Source of the DNA: Lepisosteus oculatus
Lineage: Eukaryota > Chordata > Actinopteri > Semionotiformes > Lepisosteidae
Assembly (NCBI RefSeq): GCF_040954835.1
Contig: NC_090698.1
Span: forward strand, 66,843,284 to 66,907,283
Direction of reading: 5' to 3'
DNA length: 64,000 nt
Position numbers and translations under genes: made by a program. Under the pieces are notes generated by a model. The model saw only the letters and a program-made list of their open reading frames with translations, was not told the origin of the DNA and did not search any database. This document shows positions 1-63,116 of this stretch, in pieces; the first letter of the stretch is position 1, and every line of letters starts with the position of its first letter.

Positions 1-1015
1 TTAAATGGAGTTTATAACTGAAGTTCCAGAGGAAGGTTAGATCCTGATGTAATCTACTCACTTACACGTGTAAGTCTCACACCAAGGACTTCCCTTCATG
101 TATCTCTGCTGTATCCCTCCTGCCACCTCATCTACACAAAAGCCCCTAGCTCACTTGTTGCAATAGTATAGGCTATCCACACAGCTAGACTACCATTCCC
201 TTAGCTAGGCAACTCGGGCCAAATACTTTCTATGTTTCATCCCTCTATCACAATCATTAAGATTTACCCAACTACTGAAAGAAGTTAGCCTCATTAGTTC
301 ATAGTTAACCTTGCAAAATACTAGTTATTAGATATTCTGTGTTTTTTTTAAACTGACCGATTGCAATGCTTTCTCAGTCTAATACTGGTCTTATCTAATA
401 CTGGTCTTATCATAATTCCTTACTGGAAAAGGTTTAATGCTCTTTTAATGTTCATTAGCTGCTGAAACAAAAGATCCATATTTTTTCAGAAGAAACACTG
501 GCAATAAAATAACACCAGTTAAGGATTGTAGATAAAGAAAATGCACAAAAATGGGTAAAATAAAGAATCATAATTGGCTTGGTAGACAATGACATAAAAA
601 GAAACATAATACATTAAATATTACTATAATTTAGATCACCAAGTAACTTTTTCCTTTTAAACCAAATTTAACTCTGTTTACTTAGAACACACATGTCAAC
701 TGCAAACTTGAGGCTTCATGGCCCTGAAAGGAATCCAGGGCTAACAACAGTCCCTCTCCACCAAAATAGTATCATGTGCTAGGTGGATGTGGAATAAATG
801 CTTTGCAGCTGTTGTTGCTCTGACTTAACCTGAAGACATATTAAGCTCAGAGTGTTCTGGAAACATTGTGCAACACCCCATTTTCTTTTTTATTTCTCCA
901 ACACATTGCCTTCTTCTTAGAGAAAGGAATGTTTTCCAGAACTTTGTTTTTTCTTCATCTACTTCTGTTTTTGTACTTTTATTTATATCTACTTTCGGCA
1001 ATGCACTTTTCTGAC
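1..1015. other. AT-rich intergenic DNA with one dispersed repeat
   Basis: No exon can be supported here. About 58-240 holds repeat family I, which reappears in the same orientation near 12145-12375. The remainder is AT-rich single-copy-looking DNA without long repeats, tRNA boxes or splice-consistent open frames that I can see. Confidence 0.5.
58..240 (+). repeat. Repeat I, copy 1
   Basis: This stretch aligns by eye with 12145-12375. Shared landmarks in order are CTCATCTACA, a gtaagt.tcacac block, the segment around 'actgccattccct.agctagg', and the closing 'ctat.tttc'. The copies differ by many substitutions and by an insertion in the second copy. I do not recognise the family. Confidence 0.5.
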
Positions 1016-1017
1016 AG

Positions 1018-1480
1018 TCACGGGGGATCTGGAGCCTATACCAGCCAGCAACAGGCACAAGGCAGGACACGCTGGCCAGAACCAGTCAATTACAGAGCAA
1101 ACACGCAGATGCAAATACACACACACTCACACCTGGGCCAATTTTCCCTGAAGACAATTAACCTGCTGTACCAGCATGTCTTATACCGTAGAAGGAAACT
1201 GCAGCACTCAAGTGAAAACCCACATGAACACGGTGAGAACATACAAACTCCGTGCAGATAGCAGCCCAGGAATTAATAATAAGTGCTTTACAGGTAATGG
1301 GGATCCCCTCCACCACCCCCAGTGTGCAGCCCCACCTGGATGATGTGATGGCAGCTAGATTGTGAATGATTGAACATGGGGAGAGAACACAAGCTCCACG
1401 TACTGTAGAGAGCACCCCAGGAAAAGGGCCCAGTGCCCCAGCACTGTGTGACATCAATGCTAACCACTGTGCCACCCCTA
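1018..1480 (-). repeat. SINE family A, interrupted by a family C tail
   Basis: Read on the minus strand, 1480-1367 holds the tRNA-like head (GTGGCACAGTGGTTAGC, the A box) and 1282-1018 holds the body, with the characteristic 'ggagtttgtatgttctc' phrase. Between them, about 1283-1345 matches the 3' tail region of family C, also on the minus strand. The layout suggests that a family C copy inserted into or recombined with an older family A copy. Sequence decay is heavy. Confidence 0.65.
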
Positions 1481-1972
1481 GCTCAACACAAATTGAAATG
1501 CTGCACGAAGCCTAAACTAGATGATCATCCACATAGAAAGGTTAAGAATGAGAAGAGATTTGGCCCAGCTTGCCCATCTAGTAGTATTATGTAAGTTTGA
1601 CCACTATTCGCCAAGGGACGGGGTACAGTTGTTGGACTGCTGTCACAGGGAGGGTGGTCTTGAGTTTCCAGCACACAGAAGCTCATGTGACTTTGCAGGG
1701 TGCCTGCAGGTGAGCAGTAACATCAGTGAGAGACGCATAGGTCCTACGGGGAATGACAGCTCTCCCGTCAGGCTCTATGGAGCTTGCAACATGTCTAAAT
1801 GACAAATGGCTTTGTGGTGAGTGTGTTGGAGGAGCACATCCGTGTGTCTCATTCTCTGCTGAGCGAGTGTGGGAAGCACTCCCAGAGAGTCAAGTTTTCA
1901 AATGGGTGCTGAATCCAAATTGGGTGCATATACAATTAAAGAAAACAATTATTACAATTGCTTTATTTACAA
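1481..1972. other. Intergenic stretch, nothing recognised
   Basis: Two overlapping short open frames occur here (about 1521-1802 and 1753-2037), but neither shows domain motifs, splice context or low-complexity signals of a real gene. I see no repeat of known type. Confidence 0.4.
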
Positions 1973-2616
1973 CAGTGATTCTCAAACTATGGTACGTGGC
2001 GCGCCATATGACCCTGGAACTTTGTTGTGTGGACTGAAAAATCGGGACGGGTTTTCATATTTTCTATTTTAATACGTGTCGAATACATAGCCTGTGTACT
2101 ACAATACAGTGTGCACTGATACTTAAATGGACACAGAGCTACAATGTAATTCTATACCACTCTATAGAAATGTGTGCTACGAACGCAAGTGATCAATTGT
2201 ATTTCAAAAAGAATATCTCCAGCAAATGGAGAGGTAGGAGAATGTGCGTGATTTTGGAACAATGCCAATGTTGTAAACACAGGAAAGCCTAGAAATGCGT
2301 ACTACGAACCCTGGGAATCTTGTGGAGCACAGGAAAGCGTGATACTGTAGATAACAGAAAATATTTAAGAACTGTTCTAGGTTAATTTGAGAAAAATACA
2401 CCGAACGTCTCTGTGTTTCGCTCCTGAAATGGAAACGGGGAAAAACGCAAGCTTGCGGATTGCTAAAGCAGGTAAGCCCCACACTACTTGTGAAGAATTT
2501 TGTTTACCGTTGGCAAAAGAGCTGACACGTACTGTACAGTATTATGTGTGGAGAAAAAGCTGCTGAACAGCTCGACTTGCTGCCCCCTCCGAAAGACGCA
2601 TTCACTCATAATTATT

Positions 2617-3030
2617 GATATGGCGGATGATGTCAAAAGTACGCCGACAGATCGTGTTAAGATGAACAGATGCTTTTCACTGCAAGTACATGTAGATGGG
2701 TCTTTAAATGTTGATTTGGCCAATTTGCACGTTTACGTTCGATACGAGTTTGAGGGCACGTCACATGACGACTTTCTGTTCTGTAAACCGCTACCAACAG
2801 GAACTACAGGAGAGCACGTATTTCAGCTTCTGAATGAATTTATCGAAAAGAATGGCATCGACTGGATAAAATGCGTCGGAGTTTGTATAGACGGTGCTAG
2901 AGCGATGACAAGCCGGCACAGCGGTGTAGTTGCACGAATTAGAGAGGTTGCTCCAGATATGAACTGCAGCATCCACCGCGAGTCCTTGGCCATCAAGAAA
3001 ATGCCTGAGGATTTAAAATCTGTAAGACTC
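2617..3030 (+). pseudogene. hAT transposase fragment (RNase H-like core)
   Basis: This is the recognisable coding part of the element at 1973-3388. The fragment carries the middle of the catalytic domain around the CVGVCIDGARAM motif, whose aspartate corresponds to a conserved acidic residue of hAT transposases. The usual 'LDES' block upstream is altered to VHVDGS. The reading frame ends at 3085 after unrelated residues. It is not an active gene and I see no sign of domestication. Confidence 0.8.
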
Positions 3031-3164
3031 TGTTGTGAATTGTATCAGGGCTCTACCAATGAATTCACATCTGCTTTGCTCGATTAACAGGCTCACCCCT
3101 CTCACTGAAATGGTGTTTTTTTATTGTTTATTTTTTAATTGTTGTTGTTGTTCCTTTTGTCATT

Positions 3165-3215
3165 CTGTAAAGTGCTTTGAGAAGCCACCTTTAAAGGCGC
3201 AAATAAATATATCAA
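3165..3215 (+). repeat. L2-type retroposon 3' tail
   Basis: The phrase 'aaagtgctttgagaagcc' followed by 'acctttaaaggcgc' is the reverse complement of the segment at 12484-12530. It resembles the conserved vertebrate L2-clade tail. It lies inside the hAT remnant and so inserted after it. Confidence 0.55.
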
Positions 3216-3388
3216 ATAAAGTTTATTATAATATTTATTATATGTGTATGTGAGTGTGTGCGCACACACACTCATGTTGGTCATTGAGATTTTCTGGGGT
3301 TCGTATGAGAAGATGAATTGTAGGTGGTACTTGGATGCTTTGGTTTGATCAGGGGTGGTACTTGGTCCAAAACGTTTGAGAACCACTG

Positions 3389-4940
3389 ACATACATAATA
3401 CATATGAATAACCTTACTGATGCACTTTAGTTATTGTGTGACTTTAACATTGATGTGGTTGGCCATGTATTCCACTGCATACTGTAGTTATAGCTAGCAT
3501 TTTCTTTCCATGAAGGTTAATATTGCCAGGTGAAGGGTGAGGAAATAAAAAGGAAACAAATGCTTTTTGTGTCACAAAGTACACATAGAGAAAGTGGAAT
3601 ATATTGTCATCAGAAGAAGGAAAAAGAGCTTGTGAATTTTCAAATGCTTTTTATCCTAAAGGGTCTAAAAGCACTTCACATATAGGCGTGGACTCACACC
3701 ATCAACCACTGAAGTGCAGTCCCCACGTGGGTAACATGTGTAGCCAACAGTCCCAGGACACCTCAAATCAGGTGGAGAAATGCAAAATGCACTCATTATT
3801 TGAATTAATTAAGGGGGAAATTTAGATAGGCAAAGGGGGCTTTTACATCTCCTGTTATATAGCGAGCCCAGTCCCCATACAGTGGCATTGCTTTGGAAAA
3901 ATCTGGTTCTTAACAATAGACCTACTGTAGAGCCATAAAGTTGGAATTCCTCTGTCACTCACTGCCAGCTTTGTAAAACCATAACTTCAGCCTGTGGAGT
4001 CTCTGTCCTTGGGTGGCAGGTGCTCTGAGTAAATATTTTTCAATCCGCTATCTTGGATAGATACAGCCTTTTGTGTAAAGCCAGAAGACACAGGTGCTAA
4101 TTGATGCACCCGCTTTTCCATGCACAGAAGTTCCCTGTGTCATTTTCCTCCCTCCTGGCTTTAACGTAAGGAACATTCAATTTCCACCCATCTCTGACTC
4201 TTGAGTTCTGACTAACATTATTGCGTCTACCACAGTTTGTTATGTGCTCGTCTGGTTCCAGCAGTGCTGTGGAAAGCCTGGGCCTTGCAGGGGCCTGGTA
4301 TTTGAGTTCAAAGATCACAGCGCGTCATTTTCTTACCGGATCAGTTTGCACAAACATTTGTATTTTGGTATTGTGTGTTAGTGCATACTGTATATTCTGA
4401 CTTATTAGATTACTCAGCTGCTGAAAATTATATTTCAAATTATTCTACCAGTTCTGTCAACCTTTTCGCCGTTAGTGCACTGCGAGCTTCGTCCTCTGTT
4501 TCAGCACCACAACAAAGGCAATCTGTTTTGGTGCGATTTTTTTTTTCTTTACCAGGTTCCCTTTTTAGACCCAGTTTTGTAGAAAGGGCGGTTTCATTCT
4601 TCAGCGGCTGTTTCTTCTTCTTCTTGTGGATTCTCAGTGTTTGGGGGGCAGATAAGTGGTTACTCTCAGAGCACCTGCTGGTGGAAGAGGGCTTATCACA
4701 CTGTCACAGAGTCTGCGCTCATCCTCCCCTGGCCCCCTCAGACAAGGGAAAAAAACAAAACAACAAAGCGTTCTTTCTTCTTTCCTCTTTTTGTCTAACC
4801 ATCTCACGCTCACTGGACAGGAAAACAATGTGAAATATTCCAAGGACAACCTGGCTTGTAAGGAGATAAAAACCAGGTTCCCAGGCTACTACAAGTAAGA
4901 CATTCCCTCCCTGACATTTCACGACCAGTGGACATACATT
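3389..4940. other. Upstream flank of gsdf
   Basis: No exon or classified repeat is supported. The stretch holds pyrimidine-rich runs near 4535-4625 and a purine/A run at 4748-4770. Any distal regulatory DNA of gsdf would lie here, but I cannot point to a specific element. Confidence 0.35.
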
Positions 4941-8200: not shown

Positions 8201-11200
8201 ACCAATTCTATTGATTAACCGAACACTACTCTCTAGTCTAGAGTATCTATTCCCGGTGTGCGCACACTCAGGTTGCTTTACAAATCAAAGTTACAATTGT
8301 AGAATAATATAAAATGTGGGTAAAAATTTGAGTTTAAGGAGAACAAGTTTCAAACTCAATTATTAAATAGTTACAAACTATTAAAACAGGTATTATTTGT
8401 AGTCAAGGTGCTAGGCACTTTCTAATTATTTATTTTGAGCCACATGCAGACAATACTTTTTTATTTGATTGTGTTAAACCTGATGTGAGGGGCTCAAGCT
8501 GGAAAAGCATGACAGCACAGGTATCCCTGTTGTCCAGACATCAAAGGCTCAGTCTGAACCAGACCCTCTCACCAGCAGTGACCAGGAAGACACTGACAGC
8601 ACTCAGCCGGCTGGGTGAGGTCAGAGTGGGGCTGGTTTGTCAGTGAGAGCAGCATTGCTCCAGTCACCGATGCTGTATCGCCTGTGGTGCTTGTGTTTCA
8701 CACCACAGTGTGCACAGACCTTCTTCAGAGTGGCTCAGCCCTATAAGAAATGCTGTCAACTCCCAATCATCCAGCAGAACACAAGAGCGTCACTTCTACT
8801 CCGTCTGAGGCTACCCTCAAGGCCTGTCTGTTGGCGGTCGCTGCAGTAAAAAGTCAATTAACAACTGGCAGTTCTTAATTGGCTATTGATTTGCTTGTTT
8901 TAATATCTATCCATCCATCCTTTATTCAGGTGAGCAGGTGCCTATCTCAGCCAGCAACACACACAAGGCAGGATACACCCTTGACGGGATACCAGTGCAT
9001 CGTAGGGAACACACTGACACAGACACTCACATGAGAGCCAGTTTTTCCCATGAACCTACCAGCATGTCTTTGGACTGTGGGAGGAAACCGGTGCTTCCCG
9101 AGGAAAGCCACACACACAGGGAGAACATGCAAACTCCACACAAATAGCACCCCAGGAATTGAATCCAGGGCTCCAGCACTGCAAGGCAGCAATGCTAATG
9201 ACTGTGCCACCCCTTGTGTTAATATAATATATATGTTAATATAAAATTAGCAAAACATCCAGAGCTTATCCACGACTATTGAGAGAATAAAAAGTTCAAT
9301 TCCAGAACCATTTTAGTAGCTAAATGCTCCAGAATATGAGCTTCTCTTTCCAGAATATCTGTATGTGTGCAAACAGACCTGTTGACTGGTATTGGTGTGG
9401 TTGTGACTGTCAGCATTTTTCTGCAGTGGGTAACACCGTCACCCTCCAGGAGTCTTACCTGAACAACTCCAAAAGCACCACAACGAGGGTGAGCTGCTGC
9501 AAGATGACATCACAGGTCTTTATCAAAGGTAGGCTTCATTTCAGAACGCGACACTGAACCGTACTGCCTTCTGAAGCATGGTCATTCAAATACCTGTCAT
9601 CCACTGTGACTACAATAATTTAAGTGCTTAACTGTCAAGACTTTAATAGGTTTTAGATTTAGGTGAAAGATTTATTTAATTACAATGCTGAAGGGTTTCC
9701 CCGGTTATCAAAAGTTTATTCCAATATGGTGCACGGTAAATTAATGTTTAATAGCATTCAATTAGAAAAATATGAATACACAGAATTGCGATACATGGCC
9801 TAATACAGTACATACCTAAAAATGCTGAGAAGGTGGGCTCCAATTTATCATAACTGCAGAATGACAAGCCTGTTATATATAAAAACAGACTATGAGAATA
9901 ATACAAATTATACCGATGTTTAAGAGTTAAGAGTTCATTTTGCTAGCGTAAGAGTTTTGCAATATCCATTACATATCCAGTTGTTATGTAATGTCTTACC
10001 TGACTTAACTTTGTTTTTCTTTTTTTACCTGATATTAATATTGCTCTTAAACTATGTAATCAAAACACGATTTGTGAATCTATGCTTATTTGTATGTTGT
10101 GGTGTAAGAGCCAAAAACGATTACCACCACAAATAAAAAATCAATCTTAAAAATAACTACACATAAAGAGGAGTGCAACTTTATATGTTACATTTAGAAA
10201 AATGTTTCTTTCTCTGCCGTTTGGTATGAAAATCTCAGAGGACTGCCGCTTTTCATAAGCAAGTCCAAAATGAGTCCAAAATGCTTTAGGCGGTGGGCAT
10301 GGTTTTTTCCTGAAGGTGGTTTACAGTCGTTGTCTTGTGGTATTTTAAACGAACCTGCAGGACGGGGTCTCTCCCCGGGCAGGATTGGAGACAAAAAAAG
10401 GCCGATGTAACGGGAGGTGTACTCTCTTGCCACACCAGCTCCCACTCGCGAGTTTTTTCACAAGGCCTCTCTCTCCTGCTCCTGTCAGACCTGGGCTGGG
10501 AGACATGGATCCTGCACCCCGAGAGCTTCGCCTACGCCCAGTGTGTGGCCTGCGCGCCCCACAGAGACAGGGCCCGGCTCCGCTGCGGACCAGCCGGCCT
10601 CGCCTCCAGGCATCATGCCCCACAGGTGCTCTGCAGGGCTTCCTCTGCGGTATCCCACCCGTGCCGTTCAACACACAGTACGGTACCCTCAGGCACACAT
10701 CCCAGGCGCTTCCAGACTGTTTTCAGGGGAAGCTGTCAATTATGAATCACTGCTATGGCCCAAGGGCAGAGGCTACTCAGATATGTGTGGGGCTTGCTAA
10801 GGATATTTGGTGTTACTATATTTAGATTTTCCACAACAATACCTACACAATCATGATTTTTCCATTTTTTATTCAATTAATTATTTACCGCTTTCTTTTT
10901 GTTTTGTTCTGTTGTTTTTTTTTGCTTTGAACGTGTGCATTATGTTGTGTATTTAGCAAATGTTATTAACCGTGTTTCCGTAGTGTAGTGGTTATCACAT
11001 TCGCCTCACACGCGAAAAGGTCCCCGGTTCGAAACTGGGCAGGAACATGTTGGGGCGGAGCAGTGGCTCTGTGGCTAAGGATCTGTGCCTGTGGCTGGAG
11101 AGTTGCTGGTTCAAATCCTGAAGCTGGCAGACGAATCCTACTCCGTTGGGCCCCTGAGCAAGGCCCTTCACCCCAACTGCTCCAGGGGCGCTATTCAATG

Positions 11201-12783
11201 GCTGACCCTGTGCTCTGACCCCAAGCTTCTCTCCCTGTCTGTGTGTCTGTGTCTCATGGAGAGCAAGCTGGGGTATGAGAAAAGATAATTCCTGATGCAA
11301 GAAATTGTAAAGGGTTATAAAGTGATGTTATTATTATTATTAACTGCTGCTGCAAAAGTGTCCTGACTTTAAAAGCTTGAAACCAACGAAACGTGAAAAC
11401 CGGACAGGGGTCAGGCTTCTTTTGCATCTCCTTCAAAACGACAGCAAAATCCCTTGAAAGGGGTACTGTAAAAATCCTCATGTACTGTATATTCCATTTA
11501 CTGGTAGTAGCAGCTCCTGAAAAACATGGGGAAACCTGGAGAATGCAATCATTAATTGAATAGCCCTTTAAGATCAATGCAAGTTCACCGATTCACTTTC
11601 TTTCGGTATTTGAGGTAGTCCAACCGATACTGACTCTATAGTGATTGTATTAGTCTTGGAAAAAAAAACTCAAAAACCGAGAAGGCTTAGTTTAACTGAA
11701 AATGCAACACAATGTGGTTCCCAAGTTATCAGTGCTTTGTCTATGCGGCTGATAAACGAGGATACGCTGTGTGATGTCAATATGTCTCTTTGTGCAAGGT
11801 CGACACAGCTGTCCAAGCTCTTCAAGCTGATACCCTGGCTTCTTTCAAAAAGCCGCTGGATGAGACACTGTAATTAATTGGCCATTAAAATCAATCAAGC
11901 TAGAGAATTCTAACATTCCTCTTCAGAACTTATGTCGCCTTGGGAGTTGAAGAGGAAACACAGCTTCATTGGCAATAGTTTCCTATTCTGCCAACACACC
12001 AGTTTGCCAACACATGATCATCTTAAGGCAAGACGAAACAGGGCTCTGCCACGAAAATGAAGCCTCAAAGCAGGGTCATATTAAGCTATGAGTTCGGCAA
12101 ATCACCAACGTTTTATTTGTATACCATTATATCCTAATCTTGCCTGCTCCCTCATCTACATATGTAAGTTTCACACTCAGGTTTTCCCCTTCACATACTG
12201 CATCTCTCTCGCATCCCACAATGCCTCCCGATCTGCACCCTTACAGCAGCTCCCTGGCTCAATCCTCTCTGTATTAACAAGGGGGAGGGGGCCGGGTTGG
12301 GTAGCCTGTCCTAATGGCTACACTGCCATTCCCTCAGCTAGGTGAGTCCGAACAAATAATTTCTACATATTTCTTTCCATTACTGCATTCACTAGCATCC
12401 AACAAAACTGCTGAAATGTGCAATTGCGGTCGCTTTCCCTCTGTTATAATTATAATATTAATAATAATAATAATACACTTTATTTTATATAGCGCCTTTA
12501 AAGGTGGCTTCTCAAAGCGCTTTACAGGATGACAATAACAATAAATAAGAAGACTACAAATTATCTTGGTCGTGGTAGACACATGCTTTGCTGCGTCCCT
12601 CTCTTCAGACCCCTGACGGGTCTCTCTGCTCCTGCTCCTCAGGTCTCCTGCTGTGGGCCTGTGGCGTTCCGCATGGTTCCCTTCATCTACCTTGACCACC
12701 ACAGCACTCTGACCATCTCCAACATCCCACTGGTGCAAGACTGCAGCTGCACTACAGACCCTGGCACTGGTATGGAAAACTAA
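5071..12783 (+). CDS. gsdf: Gonadal somatic cell derived factor (gsdf), complete, five exons
   Basis: A secreted TGF-beta family growth factor made by gonadal somatic cells in fishes, with roles in early germ-cell proliferation and gonadal sex differentiation (family knowledge). Coding exons: 5071-5210, 7958-8124, 9427-9528, 10489-10625, 12643-12783. All introns are GT-AG, and the splice phases 2, 1, 1, 0 join without a break to give 228 aa, near the usual size. Residues 1-19 form a hydrophobic signal peptide. The prodomain includes CQGEPLQTIR (48-57). The cystine-knot domain starts at CCKMTSQVFIK (126-136), continues DLGWETWILHPESF (137-150) and QCVAC (154-158), and ends SCCGPVAF (184-191) and CSC (216-218). 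The DLGW...WI..PESF block and the terminal CxC identify the superfamily; the CVAC spacing without the usual CxGxC glycine points to gsdf. One N-glycosylation site, NNS at 115-117. No clear furin site precedes the knot. Linkage to aff1 supports the call. Confidence 0.9.
5211..7957 (+). other. gsdf intron 1
   Basis: A 2.7-kb intron, AT-rich, without recognised SINEs. It includes a G-run near 6870 and no other open frame with a clear signature. Regulatory elements may be present but none is identifiable by eye. Confidence 0.6.
7958..8124 (+). CDS. gsdf: gsdf exon 2 (prodomain)
   Basis: The acceptor is AACTAG|T and the donor ACTG|GTAAAG. It encodes residues 47-102 plus one base. The helix-forming segment LQTIRTKLLEAFSLKQ and the following ELRDHWKAALSVFS look like a typical small prodomain. 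The two-base overhang of exon 1 plus its first T gives serine 47. Confidence 0.85.
8125..9426 (+). other. gsdf intron 2, with a cryptic exon-like segment and a SINE
   Basis: The intron contains an inverted family A SINE (8909-9214). At 8521-8614 a 94-nt segment is open in the incoming frame, flanked by CAG and GTGAGG. Because 94 is not a multiple of three, including it would shift the frame of exon 3 and give the stop GGT GGG TAA at once, so I leave it out of the gene model. Confidence 0.6.
8909..9214 (-). repeat. SINE family A, nearly complete copy in gsdf intron 2
   Basis: On the minus strand it runs from a tRNA-like head (GTGGCACAGTCATTAGC, then the B box GGATTCAATTCC) through the 'ggagtttgcatgttctccc' and 'tttcctcccacagtccaaag' phrases to a GGATGGATGG tail at 8911-8920. 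This is a tRNA-derived SINE common in fish genomes. Confidence 0.8.
9427..9528 (+). CDS. gsdf: gsdf exon 3 (start of the mature domain)
   Basis: The acceptor follows a good pyrimidine tract (ttttctgCAG) and the donor is AAAG|GTAGGC. It encodes residues 103-136: a serine/threonine-rich linker with an NNS sequon, then CCKMTSQVFIK, the first strand and first cysteines of the knot domain. Phase 1 on both sides. Confidence 0.88.
10489..10625 (+). CDS. gsdf: gsdf exon 4 (TGF-beta core)
   Basis: The acceptor is CTGTCAG|AC and the donor CACAG|GTGCTC. It encodes residues 137-182, with the superfamily signature DLGWETWILHPESF, the pair C155/C158, C169 and a basic/proline linker. Local GC content is high compared with the flanking intron. 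Confidence 0.9.
10974..11047 (+). pseudogene. tRNA-Val(CAC) copy, probably decayed
   Basis: The sequence folds as a valine tRNA: acceptor GTTTCCG, A box TAGTGTAGTGGTTATC, anticodon stem TTCGC/GCGAA around the loop CTCACAC (anticodon CAC), and B box GGTTCGAAACT. Departures from a functional copy are an extra A in the variable region, one C-A mismatch and one wobble pair in the acceptor stem, and a weakened T stem. It lies inside gsdf intron 4, five bases before a family B SINE. Expression is possible but I would call it a pseudogene. Confidence 0.75.
11052..11342 (+). repeat. SINE family B, copy 1 (gsdf intron 4)
   Basis: The tRNA-like head has GGCTCTGTGGCTAAGGATCT (A-box side) and GGTTCAAATCC (B box). 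The body includes 'ttgggcccctgagcaaggcc' and the 3' end reads GCAAGAAATTGTA...TTATTATTATT. Two other copies are at 21613-21891 and 30272-30556. Confidence 0.8.
12145..12375 (+). repeat. Repeat I, copy 2 (gsdf intron 4)
   Basis: It matches 58-240 in the same orientation, sharing the CTCATCTACA start and the 'actgccattccct.agctagg' block. It contains an extra G-rich insertion (about 12277-12300) not in the first copy. Confidence 0.5.
12466..12535 (-). repeat. L2-type retroposon tail fragment
   Basis: The run of AATAATAAT followed by 'ttatatagcgcctttaaa', 'ggtggcttctcaaagcgc' and 'tttacagg' matches, inverted, the tail at 3165-3215. It lies just before gsdf exon 5. Confidence 0.55.
12643..12783 (+). 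CDS. gsdf: gsdf exon 5 (C-terminus)
   Basis: The acceptor follows a strong pyrimidine tract (tgctcctgctcctcAG). It encodes residues 183-228: SCCGPVAFRMVPFIYLD, then HSTLTISNIPLVQDCSC and a ten-residue tail, ending in TAA. The paired CC and the C-x-C are the classic end of the cystine knot. The short tail beyond CxC is typical of gsdf rather than of BMPs, which end directly after it. Confidence 0.9.
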   Translation, partial: VSCCGPVAFRMVPFIYLDHHSTLTISNIPLVQDCSCTTDPGTGMEN

Positions 12784-15705: not shown

Positions 15706-18016
15706 AAACATCTAGAACAATAACTGAGTTGATTCATTTAATTTTCTGCGTCACCCGGAACACATCTGAATACTTTCTAGTAAAAACATTTGAAGGCTCC
15801 ATCAGTACAGTACAAAGAAGATTGCTGAAGGAGATGGCTTATATCTGATGACCTTGAGTACATTTAAAAAAATTAAGATACTTTGTAATGAAGACTCTCT
15901 CAAACTGATTAGGCAAACATCCATGGAGTTCATCTTGGGCTTCAAAAAACTGAAGGCTTCAGAAAGTTGTTGAAAAATGTATTATACTGTGATTCACTGA
16001 CTTAATGGACAAGGTCTATTTCAAACTGATCTTTCATCTGAGTTCTTGAAGCCCAAAATATACATGTACATTTTTGCTTTGGGTTGGTAATCTGCTCAGA
16101 ATTGTGTGTAATGACACTAAAATACATTTTATACACCACTGTGCAAAACGTTTAGACATTTATCACTGTTGGATCCTTTGTATTTGTTTTTTCTTCATGC
16201 AGAAGAAAAGTTCTCTTGTAATCATTTGCTAATTTTTGTACTGAAATCACTGTATTTTGTCATATAAATAGCAGCCTTTGTCTTTTATGGATGTGTAGAG
16301 AGAAACAAATGACGGTAAAAATGAGACACACTGTACCTGTCAGTGAGCTGATTAGATTGGTAAATGTGAAGAATTTGCTACTGCAACACTTCATATTGGC
16401 TGCTCATGTATAGTTTACCATGATTTGTTGTGGTCGATTTTCTGTAGATTCTGACCAGTGTGACTTACAGACTGCTGAATAACCAGCTTGATTTATTCAC
16501 ACCCAAACTAAACTGTATTAACAGTCAAAATTGTATTAATAACAGTCAAATTTGTTAGAATTGAAGAAAACAACAGTGGAGTCTTGGAGTTTATTGCTGA
16601 TGCTAATAACATACTATACATATATTATAACTCCCAATTGTGTCTACGTTGCAATGCATGTTACCTTTATCTTTTATGTCTTAGGAAACAAATTTCTGCT
16701 ACTTTCCAATCAGATATATTTCATGCTATGAGTATAATGATGTATTCTGCATTTTTACATTACTGCATGTACGGTAATCCTCTGCTTATTGTTTTATCTT
16801 TTGGTTAAATAAAAGCATTACAAAATATTTCTAAGTCATTTTTATTTTACACCTCAAACATTTTCCAGCCACTATCTATGATCATATTTAACTATGTCAA
16901 TTTAAAAATACATGCATACTTACATGTTCTCAAAATGTCATGAGATATGCCTAAATATGAAATTGCAGACATTTCAGAACCAGAATTTGGTCCTGTCATC
17001 TTGATCATAATCAAGACTGACAGAGAATTCCCACTAACTGAATTAGATATTCTTGTTTAATTCAGAACAAATTGCTACATATTTTATGTTATTTGTGAAT
17101 ATAGGTTCAGTAAATAATGTAACATAGTCTTGTTCGTGTTATGTAAGTAATTTTAATGCATGTGGTGCATGTCAAACTTAATTTATCAAGATATTTAAAC
17201 ATCTGAAGTATTTACAGAGCAAAGAGTGCAATATACTTGAATGTATCTGTAACTAAAAATGGTTCTGTGCAAGCTGTTCTTTGTGTGCACATATCTTCTG
17301 TTTCCACAAGTTATAAAGTAATATATTTTATTTTTAATTAAATAAAATTTCTCCAAATATGAAATGTTTCTAAAACGTTGCAGTGATGCTGCAGACAACT
17401 AGTTCTCTGCTTACATTAGTAATAATAAATAATAAAATACATAAAAATAAAAAACATACCGTATTTGAATACTGTGGAACCGTTCAAAGTAACTTTAAGA
17501 TAAGGAACTTAAAACTGATCAGGGATCCTTAACATACATGTATTTGTATAGAATTTGTTTGTCGCTACCTTTGCTGCGTAAAGTTACTGTAACTGTACAG
17601 AAATAATTTCTTAAATCACTTCTGATTTCTTAAATCGCATTGTCAAATGCACACCATTTAAGAGGCAAGGGGATACCTTAAACTGTAATCTATCGTATCA
17701 TGGACTTGCCATCTGAAAAAAAAATCTTAGATCATTGTTGGCAGGCGTCTGCAGAGTATAATTCGAATACGCCTCCTAGATTTTAGCTTCCTACAAAAAG
17801 AGCTGAAACGAGAGACCGAGAGAAAAGAAACTAGCGATATTCGAACGATGCGTTCTTGCTGGGTTTGCTTTGCGCGTGTGAGTATCCCTCGTCTGTGAAG
17901 AAGACAATTCATTTTGGAACCCACAGCCGCAATTTCTGTTCACCTTAAAAAAAAAAAAGAAAGAAAGAAACCGAACCCTGCCTTCTGAAATACCCCAGAC
18001 ACCTCAGAGTGTCGGC

Positions 18017-18281
18017 ATGCAGGGGTGCCGGTTGATCCGCGTGTGGTGCTTCTTTTGGCTAGCACTATCGTCGCAGCTCTTGGCCTTTGTGTTGTCTCTG
18101 GACAGTCACAGGCAATGCTCGGAGGACGACCAGCTGCTGTTTGAGGAACACATCGAAGGACAGACCAAGCCGGTCCTTGAAAATGGCTGTTTAATGCAAT
18201 GTACGCTCGAGGTTTACTCAAGAATGTCTAAAAGAAAAAATCTTATGATATCAGCGGTCCGCCTCAACCTTGGGAGCGCAG
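18017..18281 (+). CDS. Orphan secreted protein, exon 1
   Basis: The ATG context is GGCATGC. The exon encodes the signal peptide and the first three mature cysteines (C34, C58, C62), ending in SAVRLNLGSA and a GTAAGC donor. An upstream purine run (about 17948-17975) lies in the presumed 5' leader. Confidence 0.75.
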
Positions 18282-21200
18282 GTAAGCACGTTTTTTTTTT
18301 GCGACCAGAAATGTAAATATTCAAGGCAGCACCAACAACGTTTAAACTTTTAAACGTTTTAGGCTAAACAGTATTGGAACAAGTAATAGGTTTATTCCAT
18401 GTTGAAAAAAAGAAGAAAAAACAAAGTTTCAGCCGTGGAGCCTTCTTCAGGTGACACCTTTGCAGCCTACCCAGGCTGACGCAGCTACCCACCTAAACTG
18501 TATTGGTTTTGGTAATCTGTCATTATCGATATTCTTGCTCGATTAGGCTACGGTGGAGTCATACAGTACTTATTAAGAATATTTAACGTGTTAAATGTAA
18601 TGTAGCACCTCCACACAGACTGCGCATTCAGAACTTTACTCGTGAGAATCTTTTTTTTGCCAACTTTGTGTTTTTTGACCCGTTTTGGCAGATTTGTAAT
18701 TTTAGACCTATTGAACAACAATGATGCAATGATCAAGTAAATCGTAATCCACGCACACGAGATAGTACTTTTTTTTTGCCAAAGAAGTCTTTTATACTCA
18801 ATGGAAGTCAAAAGCATTAGCTCGATGTTCAATAAGATTTAAAATCCCAAAATCCCATGTCCTTCCTCAATAATTTCACACAGCACATGAAAACGAAATA
18901 CAGTATAATCTATTTAGATTAGGAATACTTTTAAGCAATAAATCAAGTGAGTAATTTGTTCAGTTAAGGGAAGAATTGGTCTTAAAGTATATCTTAACTG
19001 ACAAATTGGAATAAAAAAGAAAAATAATCTGCTTTACCGATCACAGTTAATTTTACGCAGGTCTATAGAAACCAATGAAATAATGGCAATTTGTAAAACC
19101 TGCTAGAGCACTGAGGGGCCAAAACCAAAAGGCCAGCAGTACTTTTTCCTTTTCTCCTGTGCCTTTTTATTTTTTGTGGTTGCATGTTGTTGAAAGGCAG
19201 CATGGTTGTCCAGTGATTCACATAGCTACCTCACAATGCTGGTGCCCTGGGTTCAGCACCGAACCTGAGGTGCTGTCTGCATGGAGTTTGTATGTTCTCC
19301 ACATGTTCACCTGTGTTTCTTCTGGAAAACTGTCCCGGGTTTGAGTGTGTGTGTCTGTGTCTGCCCTGCAGTGGACTGGTGTCCTGTCCAGGGTGTGCCC
19401 TGCCGTGTGCCCGTTGCTTGCTGGGATAGGCTCCAGCTCCCCCACGACCCTGAACTGGAAGAAAATGAGAAAATGGGCAGATGTATGGTTGCAAATGTGA
19501 ACACTGACTGGAAAAGGTTCCAGCCTGATACACATTTACTTTGTTTCAAAACTTACTTTTAGCATTGCTATGTTGCCTCTTATTCAACTTACTTTTAATC
19601 ATCAGAACCAGTTTTTTTGTGTCTGCGTGGTGGACAGGACAATCCCGTTACAGATTGTAGGTCTTCATCAAATCAAAACCAATTTCTAAAAACACAATAC
19701 TTGCTTGATTCATCAGTAGTTTACAGGTGTTGCCAATCTTTAAAATCAGTGACCAAAAAAAACCCAACTGGATCTAGGCTCTATAGGACCAGGATTGGAA
19801 ATCCTTTCTGTAGGTGGAAACACTTGTTTAAATGGCCATGGTCATTAAATGTTGTCTTAAATTGCCTTGCAAAGTGTTTTATCCATTCCATGGTAGGTCG
19901 CACGGAAATCCACACCACTCTCAGCTACATATACACAGGAGATGCCCGTCCAGTCAATTAAACAGACAAAGAATCTTTACATGCTCGTTTTTTGTAGCAC
20001 CGAAGTAAAAACCTTATAACCATACCAGGTGGGAATAGTACTCTTGTTATAATGAATGATAAGAAATAATGCTTAACATGATAAGATAACACTTAAGGGC
20101 AAAAGTTACGAATAAGAGCATGCCCTTTGTGCCCCAGCTAGGTTGTTGAGTTGCTGAAATATATTTGATCAGAGGGTCTCAGCCAGCTGTTTCTTGTTGT
20201 CCTCCAACCCTCTGCGTAAAAAAGTGCCTCCTGTCCTCGGTTTTAGTGCAAATTAGTGCATATGTTGTTTCCACTTGTGCCCTCTGGTTTGTGTTTCCCT
20301 GTTCATTCTCAGGAAGCCCACTGGGTTGTCTCTGTCAGTGTGTTTTTCAGAAAGCACTTTCTTGAAACCTTCTAAACCTTTGTTTTGGACTCTATCTACA
20401 GGTATTCAGTATTAAAGTATATGTTGAAGCGTACCACATTAGGTTCACAGTTCCTTAATAGTACTTTTGCATCTGTGTTCCTCAATGTGTTTGGATTGGT
20501 TGGTCTTTCAAATAGGTGGTCTGGCAAACAAAGTAAGGAGGCTGCATTAGTCATAATTAGTAATATAATAAATAGGTGAAGAGAAACACAACCGTTTTTT
20601 AGGCATTGTTAACCAATGTTGTTTATTCAATTAAACCTCTATATACCGTAAATTATATCATTCTGGAGTTTCTTGAACACTGATGCATCACAGCAGCCAG
20701 CAGTAAGGTTTTGGAGTAGACTACAGTAGTTTCAAACAGGGGTTTCTAGTACTTTCACACCATCTCTGTAGAGTTCTCACAGGATGACAACTTGCAGATC
20801 GAACTGGGGGTTTGTTTTTCCAGCTGACAGATGTCCTACACATGAACCAAGAGCCCAGGGGTTTAGGGGATTGTATTTGTGCAGTGAGGGATACATGCTT
20901 GGGCAAAGTCAGCTGTATGTGCAAGGAGGGACATGCACACTGTGTGGTGCTGTATCTCCAGGGATTGCGGGAGGTGGGAAGGACCACTGACCCAGAACCA
21001 TCCATTAGTGCAGTGGTTCCCAATGGGGTTCTGGTGACCCACACACCTGTTGGGTTTTGTTCCAGCTGAACCCTTCATTGACTCAGTAAGAATAAGATGA
21101 ATCTGAACTGTTTGTTTCCCAGCTCTTCCCCATGTTGGTGCTTTAACTGTTGTATTTTGTAACTGAAATTAAATCCCAAACTTGCGACTGGAAACAAAAT

Positions 21201-22878
21201 GCAAATATTCCAATTAACCCACTTCTTAGGTCAATGAATGCTTCGATTATCGAATGAAGGTGGGCTGGAATGAACTCCAGCAGGTATGTGTGTGGGTGGT
21301 CACCAGGACTAGTACTGGGGACCACTGCTGTAGAGGTTTAGACAGTATGATCTGCACACTCCACTCAAAGCGCTTTACAGGTAATGGGGACTCCCCTCCA
21401 CCACTGTGCAGCATCCACCTGGATGATGTGATGGCAGCCATAGTGCGCTAGTGTACTCACCACACACCAGCTATCTGTGGGGAGGAGAACTGGGTATTGA
21501 AGCCAATTCATATTATTATTAGGAGGCCATGATTGGTAAAGGTCAGGGGGAAATTTGGCCAGGACAATGGGGTAACATGCCTATTCTTTTTCAGAAACGC
21601 CCTGGGATTTTTAATAATAATAATGTTTCTTTATTAGCCCTATACAATTTCTTGCATTAGGAATTTATCTTTTTGCATACCCCAGCTTTTCTCCGTGGAG
21701 ACAGACAGGGAGAGAAGCTTGGGGTCAGAGTGCAGGGTCTGCCATTGTACGGTGCCCCTGGAGCAGTTAGGGTTAAGGGCCTTGCTCAGGGGCCCAACGG
21801 AGTAGGATTCCTCTGCCGGCCACGGGATTTGAACCGGCAACCTTCTGGCCACAGGCGCAGATCCTTAGCCAAAGAGCCACCACTCCACCCCATGGACATG
21901 GACAATCAGGACCTCATCCTAAAGACAGCACCTTTTTCACAGTATAGTGTCCCCATCATTACAGGGCATTAAGACCCACACAGACCGCAGGGTGAGCGCC
22001 CACTACTGATTCCACTAACACCTCTTCCAGCAGCAACCTTAGTTTTTCCCAGGTATCTCATCCAGGTGCTGGCCAGACTCACACCTGCTGAGCTCCAGTG
22101 GGCTGCTAGCTGTGAGCTGCAGGGGGATAGAGCTGCCGGCGTTCGCCCCCTGTGGGTCGACCTCCCATCCCTTTCTTTTGCAATTCGTTCCATCAGGGAC
22201 TGAGTGGATTCACCTCTTTGATCTGGGCACTGAGCAGGCATCACGCCATTTCGATACTCCCCCCTCTGTACAGTAGGCGTGGGCTTGCAGATGTTGAAGC
22301 ATAGACATTTATGGTGGTCTTTTCAGGAGTTCCCACAATGCCATGTTGAAGCCTAGGGAAGCAGAGGAAACGTGGAGATTTGACATGATTTTAGTGAGAG
22401 CGCGTTAGGCTTCGGAGGTATAGGGGAAGTACTGTAGTTTGATAGTGTACTCAGGTATACGCACTTGTATTTTGTACTTTTCTTCAGGTGTGGTGACAGC
22501 AGATTTTTCTCCTTCCCAGGCGCGGCTGGAGAGTACTGCTTTCCCACAAAGCTGAAGTGTACCAAGGGGCAGTACCTGCAGAGTGTCTTTGTGCTGTTGC
22601 CCGTAGAAACGGGGACGCAGGCAGTGGACGGCCCTGTTGCTCTGCGCCCCTCCTCCTCCTCCTCCCTCGATGAACGGGATCTCGTGAGGCTTCACCAGGG
22701 GCAGACGGGACTCGTTGACAACTGCGGGCTGCGCTTCAACGTCACCGAAGCCTTCACGGCCAGGCAGGGCGGCAAAGCCTTCTGTGTGGAAATCGTGTCG
22801 GAACAGGGCACCCCTGCCCTGAAATGCGAGCCGTTTCTGGCCACGGTGTGGTGGAGGCAACGTCGGCCCCCGGATTAG
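18017..22878 (+). CDS. Unrecognised secreted eight-cysteine protein, two exons
   Basis: Exons 18017-18281 and 22520-22878 join in phase 1 (GCAG|GTAAGC, TTCCCAG|GC) to give 207 aa with a TAG stop. Residues 9-27 are a hydrophobic signal peptide (WCFFWLALSSQLLAFVL). Outside it are eight cysteines (34, 58, 62, 95, 102, 157, 177, 191), enough for four disulfides, and one N-glycosylation site, NVT at 162-164. A serine-rich, acidic loop (132-142) separates two beta-strand-like halves: YLQSVFVLLPVE and KAFCVEIVSE. There is no transmembrane segment after the signal and no dibasic cleavage motif before the C-terminal RQRR. Both exons are intact with good splice signals, and codon use in exon 2 is GC-rich like gsdf. 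I do not recognise the family; the spacing loosely recalls small lipid-binding or cytokine-like beta proteins, but that is not an assignment. It lies between gsdf and aff1 on the same strand. Confidence 0.75.
18370..18505. repeat. Family D inverted-dimer element, copy 1
   Basis: The first part (18370-18452), on the minus strand, carries the 'cttcttcaggtg' core and 'ggtttattccatg'. The second part (18460-18505), on the plus strand, carries 'cagctacccacctaaac', the far end of the same unit. Two halves in opposite orientation make a foldback structure. Confidence 0.6.
19196..19483 (+). repeat. SINE family A
   Basis: A head with GGTTGTCCAGTGATTC and GGGTTCAGCACC, the body phrase 'tggagtttgtatgttctcc', then 'gctgggataggctccagctc' and a shortened tail AAATGGGCAGATG. 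Plus-strand copy in the orphan gene's intron. Confidence 0.8.
20166..20420 (+). repeat. Family G dispersed repeat, copy 1
   Basis: It shares with 63150-63450 the order: 'aagtgcctcctgt' or 'aagttactcctgtt', 'gtttccactt.t.ccctctg', 'ctgttcattctc', and 'gaa..ccactg'. Probably the remnant of an ancient retroelement; class unknown. Confidence 0.45.
21011..21327. mobile_element. Short non-coding hAT-like transposon (family H)
   Basis: It begins CAGTGGTTCCCAATGG and ends CTGGGGACCACTG, so the ends are inverted repeats. The flanking 8-mers cattagtg and ctgtagag agree at five of eight positions, fitting an old hAT target duplication. It has no transposase. Confidence 0.6.
21350..22125 (-). repeat. 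5S-derived SINE (family C) split by a family B SINE
   Basis: Read on the minus strand, the 5S-like head occupies about 22105-22040 ('gctcagcaggtgtgagtctg', 'ccagcacctggatgag'), the body continues to 21893, is interrupted by family B (21891-21613), and resumes to the L2-type tail near 21350 ('gtaaagcgctttgagtgg'). Sequence on both sides of the interruption joins in register with the complete copy at 55924-56503. Confidence 0.8.
21613..21891 (-). repeat. SINE family B, copy 2, nested in family C
   Basis: On the minus strand: GGTGGCTCTTTGGCTAAGGA, B box GGTTCAAATCCC, 'gggcccctgagcaaggccct', and the GCAAGAAATTGTATAGGGCT tail ending in AATAAAGAAACATTATTATT. Insertion within family C shows B was active after C. 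Confidence 0.8.
22520..22878 (+). CDS. Orphan secreted protein, exon 2
   Basis: The acceptor has a strong pyrimidine tract (tttttctccttcccAG). The exon encodes AAGEYCFPTKLKC through to KCEPFLATVWWR and a basic end. It is GC-rich within AT-rich surroundings. The antisense strand is also open over this stretch, but without splice partners or a signature. Confidence 0.75.
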
Positions 22879-23420
22879 CTCAGTTCGGAGGGACCTGGTT
22901 TTCGGATTTGTTGACTGCAGCACACTGCCTGTTGTTCCGGAACACTCTCAGAACACTCTCTGGTTTCCAATCTTCTGGTTGTTCTATGTTTCGTTACGTA
23001 ATGTGGAGAACAGCACTCAGATTTTATCGAAATGAGGACACTCTGTGAAACGCTTCAAAGCATATAAAATAAGGGCCAGAGTCCAAAGTTTAAAATGGTT
23101 GCATCCAAAATTTTAGAACTGATATTAAACAAATTGATCTAAACCATATAATCAGTCTGATAATCCTTGACCTCCCGGTCCGTCCTGCCTTGTGTTGTGA
23201 TATTTTGAACCACTTTTAAAGGAATGCCATACTAGAGAATTGTGACAACCAAAACATCAGGTGTGTTTTGAGTTAGTGGGGTGGCCAGTACCTGTAATCC
23301 CTAAAGGAATGAATTTTAGAAATCAGTTACACAACATTTGTTGCACATTGCCAACATCAAGCTCAGCAACGTGATGGAAACTTGACAGAAAGTTTCTTTT
23401 AGACTTTCAGCTGGTTTGCA

Positions 23421-23426
23421 AATAAA
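23421..23426 (+). terminator. Candidate polyadenylation signal of the orphan gene
   Basis: AATAAA lies 543 nt after the stop codon. An AATAAG-like variant occurs nearer, at about 23066. No decisive downstream element is visible. Confidence 0.3.
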
Positions 23427-24114: not shown

Positions 24115-24243
24115 CCTCACACCTGAAGAAGGCTCTACGGCCGAGACGTTGTGTTTTCTTTCTTCTCTTTTCAGCATGGAATAAACCTACGACTTGTTCC
24201 TTTGCAGCCGACGCATGCTGATGCAGCTACCCGCCTGAACATA
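24115..24243 (+). repeat. Family D element, single-unit copy
   Basis: The unit reads ACACCTGAAGAAGGCTCTAC, GGCCGAGACG, a pyrimidine run, CAGCATGGAATAAACCTACG, ACTTGTTCC, then 'gcagccgacgcatgctgatg' and 'cagctacccgcctgaac'. This is the clearest plus-strand unit and serves as the family reference. Confidence 0.65.
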
Positions 24244-27767: not shown

Positions 27768-28345
27768 GCCCGGCAAGCTGGTGTGTTTCTGCATATCTGA
27801 AGAGAGCTCGCGTCTGGCACAGTCCACATCCCTCCTTTTCTGTTATTGATTTAGTTCTGTTATCTCCCGGTATGTCTTGTTTATATTTTGCTTTATAAGC
27901 CTAGCGTCTCCGCTGTTCCGGGCTCAGTTTTGGAAGACGGATGTCCGAAGACCCGCCTATCACCAGGCCTAGAGTGAGCCTGAGGGCATAGGCTTTCACC
28001 CCGGCTTCCTGACCTCTGGGCCTGGGGCTCGGAGCGCCTGGTACCGTCATGTTTTTATCTTTTTGTGTTCCTGGTCCTGGTTCCCCTTCCTGGGGATTTT
28101 ATTCGTCTTTGTCCCGGATGGACTTCCTAGCTTCTGGATTGCGGACTGCTCTTTGGCTACCTTCCTGGATTTTCATTCCCCTGTGCACCAGAGCACAAGC
28201 AGTCACCACTCACTGTCTGCCCCAGATAAACCCTGGTGTGTCCTTCCCTGATGTCCGTCTCCAGCCTCTTCCGGACTTATCCGTCACGCATAGGGTCTTT
28301 ACCGAACACTCCGCGGGAGGCCAACGCAACACCCGTGACAGCGTC
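27768..28345 (+). repeat. Possible solo LTR or GC-rich retroelement remnant
   Basis: A TATA-like GCTTTATAAGCC at about 27890-27901 is followed by a GC-rich block with much CpG and a close near CCCGTGACA. The composition differs from the flanks and is reminiscent of Gypsy LTRs. I could not find clean TG...CA ends, a primer-binding site or internal coding, so this stays tentative. Confidence 0.25.
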
Positions 28346-30271
28346 CTGGCTTCGTTGAAACAACACAGGCAAGGAGGAGTGTCAACAAGGTGAGACCAAG
28401 GGTTTGCTGGAGTCTGCAGGTTTTCATTCCAATTCGTCTCCTAACAACCCGAAATTATCCCATTATTGGCTTGAGGGGGATCAATCCAAAGCCCTCCCCA
28501 GTCCTTCCGGAGCTGGTAGCACTTTGAGGAGACAAAGGGAATTTCGCCCTCAAGGACAAGGATCGCTCGTCCCCGAAACAGACGTCTGTCCCAGCACCGA
28601 CGTCTGCACCGCGGTCGGAATGGAAACCAGCAGCTGCAGGGATCCCTGCCTGCTCTGCGGATGAAGCACCTCCCTGTGGGTATCCCGAGTCGCAGTTTGA
28701 AGGCGACAGACTCTGGACGAGCGCCCCCACAGATCAAGGCACTCAGGCCTCCTTCTGCCCCTTTCGAACTCTTTGCCTTTGCCCAAATTTGGAATCACCC
28801 ACTGCTGAACCAGCCAGAACTCTGCTCTGCCTGCCTTGGAGGAGGCCCACAGGGCACATCCCTGCGTGCCCAAACACTGAGGCACTCCGCCAGCTGGAGA
28901 GGGAGGTGTGAGGACAGTGCCAACCACTCTGCATCCTCACGTCAACCCCTCGTAAATCTGCAAGACTGTCAGGCTAAGACTTAACTCTGACTTACCTCCT
29001 CGGAAAACGTGAAGTGAAAGGCAAGAAAGTTTTCTTTCAATAAAACTGTTACATTATTGAACCCTAACTCTTGGCAGTTGCAGACTTGTCACCCATTTCT
29101 GTTTTACAGAGAGCACTGTGAAATATATTCTTCCAAATCGGTGGCTGTCTTTTTTTAATATGTTGTACGACCAAACCGTGCTGAAGATGTACTTAATTAT
29201 TGGAAAAAGAAAACTTGTGGTAACTTGGTTTAAGATTCTGCTTTTTCAATAAAAAGTGCTTTAAATTAAGGTTTATATTTCTAGTTGTTCTGCCCACAGA
29301 ATGTTGCACACCAGAACTAAAGAGAACACGCCAAAATTATTTATTTAAGAATCCCTGAATCAGGTATATCGCAAATAATGAAATAATTATTTGAGTGCTA
29401 GACTGACAAGAAATTCAACACAAAGAAATGTTGAAACAGTCTGGTACTATATCATAGTTCAGTTTCTTCATCAAAGATGCATATTTACTGTATACAGTAC
29501 CTCATTTAAATTGAGGATTATCAGCTTTTAAGGGAATAAAGTAACCTGATAAAGTTTTTCTCGCACTTTTTTGAGCATGCATTCTCTTATCTGATTAGTT
29601 TGAAACATTTCTATTCAAAAGCCTGGCCTGAAATTCAGATTAACTCACCACACTTACTTGCCCCTTGATGAAAGTTCTCACATTTACCACAATGGAAATT
29701 CACTGTCAAATAGCTGGTTTGAACCTGCTGTTTGCTGGCTGCTGTAAAAGTTTTTTGTGCCTAATCAATGCAGTTTATATACACGTGACTAAATCGTTTC
29801 AATTTAAATACAACTTTTTGAAAATGTATGAATCCTTTGAAGACGACATCTACACTTGTTTGTAGCTTGTAGAATGCCTTATCTCTCTGAGCCGGAACAA
29901 ACAGCGGAAGAACATTTTCTTGTGAACTCTCCCAAGCTTCTGTTATTTTGTTCCTTTTCAGTAAAAAGTCCATGAAGGCTTCTGTTATTGTTAAAACTAT
30001 GGGGCCAGAGAGGAGGTGACTTTATCTGTACTGCACTTAACTTGACGGTGTTGAATTCTCCCCCTGCTTTAGATTCAGATTGTAATTGCTGCTCAAACGG
30101 AGCACCTGTGCTTATCACTTCCTGCATGGTGTTCAATTTATGGGCTCAATTTTAGATTTGATATACAGTATGTGATTTATTATGTTTTATGTGCTTTCTT
30201 ATATGTTAGCTATTTTGTTATTCACTTACTGCATTGATTGTATGCATTGTACAGTATGTTGGGCATCTTTG

Positions 30272-62935: not shown

Positions 62936-63116
62936 GTAAGAACAAGTAAAGGTTTGTTCCATGCTGCAAAGAAAAGAGGCACCACGTTCCAGCTGTGGAG
63001 CCTTCTTCAGGTGTGAAGACGCCTGTTGTGTCTTCTCTTTTCAGCCAGGAATAAACCGTTACTTGTTCGTTTGCGGCCTATGCATGCTGACGCAGCCACC
63101 TCCTTGAACATTATAA
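62936..63116. repeat. Family D inverted-dimer element, copy 4
   Basis: A minus-strand half (62936-63018: AACAAGTAAAGGTTTGTTCC, 'gagccttcttcaggtgtgaa') is followed by a plus-strand half (63019-63116: 'gtcttctcttttcagccagg', AATAAACCGTTACTTGTTCG, 'gcatgctgacgcagccacct'). Confidence 0.65.

Follow-up and report, generated by a model that had tools for sequence, protein, structure and literature searches.

The precursor of Gsdf is small and secreted, and the ML proteins NPC2 and MD-2 are secreted, β-rich proteins with several disulfides. Human LEAP2, a small secreted cysteine protein, is encoded by a gene that we take to adjoin GDF9 and AFF4. Gsdf belongs to the TGF-β superfamily, and PMC12989411 calls it an orphan ligand whose signalling is uncharacterised. 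Its gene is reported as a sex-determining gene, or a candidate for that role, in several fishes (excerpts of PMC8292791 and PMC8824383), and GSDF, GDF9 and BMP15 are proposed paralogues (PMC8292791, same excerpts). Most genes of the gsdf syntenic block are placed by those excerpts of PMC8292791 mainly in previtellogenic oocytes in medaka and in the ovary in zebrafish. In sablefish, the coding regions predicted from stickleback expressed sequence tags (ESTs) in the PPEF2–AFF1 interval between two sex-linked tags were aff1 and gsdf only (excerpts of PMC3708741). The literature on the gsdf–aff1 locus, as represented by text excerpts free of figures and supplements, describes no intervening gene.

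The window, which is the whole stretch of 64,000 nucleotides of Lepisosteus oculatus DNA that was analysed, contains at this locus a probable two-exon gene for a protein with a signal-peptide-like N-terminus (Table 1). The gene starts approximately 7.3 kb past an open frame on the same strand that contains LGWETWILHPESFAYAQC and is read as the end of gsdf, and the first recognised exon read as aff1 lies 38 kb downstream. The original prediction had set the gene between gsdf and aff1; the neighbourhood is looser than this placement implies, the gsdf-like exon ending about 7 kb upstream and aff1, at 38 kb, not directly adjoining the gene. In the stretch from the new gene to aff1, which is annotated in part, no further gene was identified. 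For the AFF-family exon, the N-terminus of AFF4 was the sole match among PDB sequences at E up to 0.001, and the three places shown by a genome search were the window, an exon on C11, which we take to be aff4-like, and an exon on C8. Its reading as aff1 rests on the original prediction, on a presumed likeness to known sequences and on the presence of the aff4-like exon elsewhere.

Like Gsdf, the new protein is a small, apparently secreted, cysteine-containing precursor encoded at the same locus; unlike Gsdf, it lacks the LGW..WI motif of the gsdf-like exon and has no match to the TGF-β superfamily in Pfam at E up to 10. With the ML proteins it would share secretion, a β-rich make-up and several disulfides, along with a presumed, vague likeness in cysteine spacing, whereas it has no match to the ML profile PF02221, is longer and is encoded in two exons. 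LEAP2 offers a parallel in that it too is small, secreted and cysteine-bearing, and its gene block may be related to this one, but the new protein has no likeness by eye to LEAP2, and the gene order presumably differs.

Table 1 Features of the new gene and its recognised neighbours, in window coordinates
Feature	Position	Strand	Content or support
Neighbour: open frame with TGF-β-like exon, taken to be the end of gsdf	10314–10742	+	Pfam TGF_beta, E 0.0067, 17.6 bits (partial match, below the 27-bit cut-off)
Coding exon 1	18017–18281	+	Signal-peptide-like N-terminus and about 60 mature residues (C34, C58, C62)
Intron, phase-1 GT-AG, 4238 bases	18282–22519	+	Holds repeat copies common to other parts of the window
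Coding exon 2, including the stop	22520–22878	+	C95, C102, C157, C177, C191; NVT at 162; a brief stretch of serines
Candidate poly(A) signal (AATAAA), some 0.54 kb past the stop	23421–23426	+	Motif alone
Neighbour: AFF-family early coding exon, taken to be aff1	61237–61359	+	AFF4 N-terminus in PDB, E 2.5e-10

The coding sequence opens with the ATG at 18017 and closes with a TAG ending at 22878. Exon 1 is followed by the donor CAG/GTAAGC and exon 2 is preceded by the acceptor TTCTCCTTCCCAG/GCG, which rank 4th of 3950 GT and 17th of 4120 AG dinucleotides on the plus strand, as scored by a consensus matrix with generic splice-site frequencies. Joined across this canonical phase-1 intron, the exons encode 207 residues free of stops, so that the two-exon, in-phase model with strong splice signals put forward originally proved exact in coordinates, splice sites and frame. 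In the 3′ flank, a motif scan found ATTAAA at 23124, past the exon 2 stop; on the 5′ side, the scan of 17501–18017 gave no TATA[A/T]A box.

The preprotein has ten cysteines (residues 4, 11, 34, 58, 62, 95, 102, 157, 177 and 191), of which two fall in the signal-peptide region and eight in the mature part, and a single N-glycosylation sequon, in agreement with the signal peptide, eight cysteines and one sequon of the original prediction. The N-terminus is hydrophobic, with a 15-residue mean hydropathy of 1.95 against a later maximum of 1.19, and by hydropathy the protein has an N-terminal signal and no second membrane segment, the pattern of a soluble secreted protein. Rule-based candidate cleavage sites include one after residue 27, and the protein from residue 29 onwards has a mass of 19.8 kDa, a pI of 6.4 and 8 cysteines. 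The original observation is confirmed. Near the C-terminus, residues 201–204 in exon 2 read RQRR, which we take to be a furin-type motif and which ends three residues short of the C-terminus; the short tail past it could be trimmed. An internal duplication, suggested by eye from the similarity of EGQT..ENGC to QGQT..DNCG, was rejected: the tandem two-domain likeness between the halves of the protein is at chance level, its score being reached by 717 and 639 of 2000 shuffles under two gap settings.

The chance of such a model arising was assessed with a scan for two-exon models of at least 200 residues with a hydrophobic N-terminus and with splice and hydropathy scores at least equal to those of this gene, the splice and hydropathy cut-offs thus being taken from the gene itself. 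On both strands of the window the scan returned one model, this gene, and did so again at relaxed thresholds; a loose setting added one weaker model at 929–4833. No comparable model appeared on either strand of 400 shuffled windows (block-wise shuffles preserving dinucleotides within 400-base blocks) at the same or relaxed thresholds, nor in a further four stretches of this genome, each of 64 kb (256 kb in all), at strict, relaxed or loose settings, although these control stretches are slightly easy, with a GC content of 0.34–0.37 versus 0.42 in the window, which favours fewer chance frames in them, and with 200 N in one of them.

A coding signal is also present in the codons themselves. Over the 618 bases examined, GC content at the three codon positions is 0.583, 0.442 and 0.699, and a gap between the third and second positions at least as large arose in 2 of 2000 shuffles of exon 1 and in none of 2000 of exon 2 or of both exons together. 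General three-base periodicity is less striking than this gap, being reached by 59 (exon 1), 10 (exon 2) and 1 (both) of 2000 shuffles. The frame remained open in 44 of 2000 shuffles of exon 1, 103 of exon 2 and 3 of both. Base composition bears on how far openness counts: exon 2, at 62% GC, lies within a CpG-rich stretch (22401–23050), and its antisense strand holds an even longer open frame of 180 residues, so that openness by itself is weak evidence. The codon-position composition of the antisense frame is the mirror image of that of the plus-strand frame, and we therefore regard the antisense frame as an echo of the sense one. The GC-rich coding exon in an AT-rich setting that had been described is true of exon 2, whereas exon 1, at 51%, is not strongly GC-rich (intron 43%, window 42%). 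An intact frame over canonical splice sites and a codon-position signal are thus found together, as expected of a protein-coding gene, and a chance origin of the gene model is very unlikely; splice ranks, shuffles, control stretches and codon-position GC all speak well for the intact secreted-protein gene with a coding signature that had been proposed.

Relatives of the protein were sought at several levels. A six-frame search of its own genome (1.2 Gb, 813 contigs), which scores the best candidates only, was run with the whole protein and with exon 2 as queries; the former matched its two exons only and the latter exon 2 itself only, and no second copy of the gene was detected in these 1.2 Gb. 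Against Pfam, the whole protein matched no family within an E-value limit of 10, nor did the two exon frames within a limit of 1, and the best matches of the whole protein and its parts to PDB sequences (E 0.83, 0.4 and 0.063) were all to implausible proteins, so the original statement that the protein fits no family stands as far as Pfam (E up to 10) and the PDB sequences are concerned. In searches that reach close relatives only, none of 13 pattern matches in viral contigs and none of 55 in prokaryote genomes was confirmed, and on these counts a horizontal origin was rejected. An origin from a transposon or repeat was also rejected, since neither exon matches anything elsewhere in the window and the genome search returned self-matches only. 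In sum, these searches detected no relative in the gene's own genome, Pfam, PDB, the viral contigs or the prokaryote genomes, and because the first of these is the one vertebrate genome covered, the label of orphan given in the original prediction is premature.

Structure prediction, proposed originally as a check, failed in the form of single-sequence AlphaFold (pLDDT about 41). Run without an alignment, with and without the signal peptide, AlphaFold gave pLDDT values of 40.8 and 40.7 and pTM values of 0.29 and 0.37, respectively. In either model nearly every element assigned past the signal peptide is a strand, with a confidence that is low and insufficient to name a fold. Of 192 Foldseek matches to the mature-only model, which is too poor for use, none had an E-value within 0.001, the best being 0.017.

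The frame is intact, the splice sites are strong, coding periodicity is present and no second copy was found. The gene is probably real, and the features of its sequence make a functional protein-coding gene very probable. The best reading, which we consider reasonably likely, is a functional single-copy gene of two exons whose product has diverged past sequence recognition; the fuller reading, in which that gene specifies a soluble extracellular ligand or binding protein, is favoured to a similar degree. The product would enter the secretory pathway and lose its signal peptide, and the mature protein that is left, about 20 kDa in mass, is predicted to be soluble, with no second membrane segment, four possible disulfides and one N-glycan. 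Outside the cell it may act as a compact, β-rich, disulfide-stabilised ligand or binding protein, and its divergence would be too great for family recognition from one sequence.

The strongest alternative is that the protein belongs to a known secreted family, such as the ML lipid-binding proteins, cystatins, class-II cytokine-receptor domains, VMO1-like proteins or ZP-N, and went unplaced since a single divergent sequence was compared. Failure to detect homologues is expected for short, fast-evolving secreted proteins, and the C-terminal part presumably resembles several such families, although these resemblances, drawn by eye, contradict one another. The most tempting of them, to our eye, is the ML domain, with its vaguely similar cysteine spacing; this was rejected, as PF02221 misses the gene while finding two exon matches on another contig of the same genome. 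Cystatin, class-II cytokine receptor, VMO1, ZP-N and J chain, which were also considered, were without support in the Pfam and PDB scans. Set against the missing Pfam match and the lack of a convincing PDB match for the whole protein or its parts, membership of a known family is a tentative reading with a substantial minority share of our belief; it overlaps with the reading of a diverged single-copy gene and does not exclude it, and the likelihoods of the listed readings do not sum to one. Homology detection failure is itself the subject treated in PMC7660931.

Alternatively, both exons may be real but belong to a larger or differently spliced gene, with further exons missed in the 4.2-kb intron or downstream. 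Phase-1 introns permit the insertion of symmetric exons, and both AlphaFold models are poor, as they might be with a piece missing, although lone sequences often fold poorly anyway. Within the intron, however, no in-frame symmetric cassette exon of 45–400 bases was found at moderate splice thresholds, and about 790 bases of its 3′ half (21351–22139) match repeats found elsewhere in the window, as do other parts of it; downstream, the stop ends exon 2 and AATAAA-type motifs then follow. A larger gene is accordingly unlikely, and the two-exon gene remains the preferred reading.

A gonadal role is more speculative. Gonad expression is a guess, a prior drawn from position, but the gonad is a reasonable first tissue in which to look because gsdf is expressed there and the teleost syntenic block is rich in ovary-expressed genes (PMC8292791, in excerpt). 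A secreted neighbour of gsdf on the same strand is a cheap candidate for shared gonadal regulation; were it unrelated to gonads, it would still be one more unassigned extracellular protein at a well-studied vertebrate locus. That the protein is a secreted factor of the gonad working together with Gsdf, perhaps as its binding partner or as a signal expressed alongside it, is suggested by its strand and its distance of about 7 kb from the gsdf-like exon and by the oocyte and ovary expression of most of the block in medaka and zebrafish, but the idea comes from position alone, and a teleost counterpart is not evident given the sablefish predictions in the excerpted PMC3708741; we regard it as rather improbable. 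More doubtful still is the boldest form of the argument, that the gene is the first to be described from a family of vertebrate secreted proteins that has a fold of its own, that it persists next to gsdf in fishes other than teleosts but has been lost from teleosts and tetrapods or can no longer be recognised there, and that its product serves in the gonad as an extracellular signal or cofactor. A non-functional open frame or recent pseudogene, kept open by GC-rich sequence, is the least probable reading and a very improbable one: the long antisense frame, the CpG-rich setting and the shuffled exons that stay open fit it, but the codon-position signal of both exons with its mirror image on the antisense strand, the strong splice sites and the empty result from 400 shuffles preserving local composition tell against it.

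Several other features were observed in the window. A tRNA-Val (CAC) is called on the plus strand at 10973–11048 by both ARAGORN and Rfam, and the sequence flanking it, 11051–11339, is 83% identical, in inverted orientation, to the intron repeat at 21612–21892; given this likeness, the call may mark a repeat of tRNA origin and not a functional tRNA gene. On the minus strand, 28302–28454, within a CpG-rich stretch (28051–28850), holds a short frame that includes the signal-peptide-like MKTCRLQQTLGLTLLTLLLACVVSTKPG and matches nothing in Pfam within E 1; this frame may be the first exon of another secreted gene or a product of chance in CpG-rich sequence. An open frame of 197 residues on the plus strand at 2494–3087, with a weak and implausible Pfam match (E 0.086), is by its look presumably a transposase relic. 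A dispersed repeat of about 80–125 bases occurs in both orientations at 18376–18498, 24116–24242, 54245–54442 and 62940–63111, one copy lying in the intron of the new gene and another about 1.2 kb past its stop.
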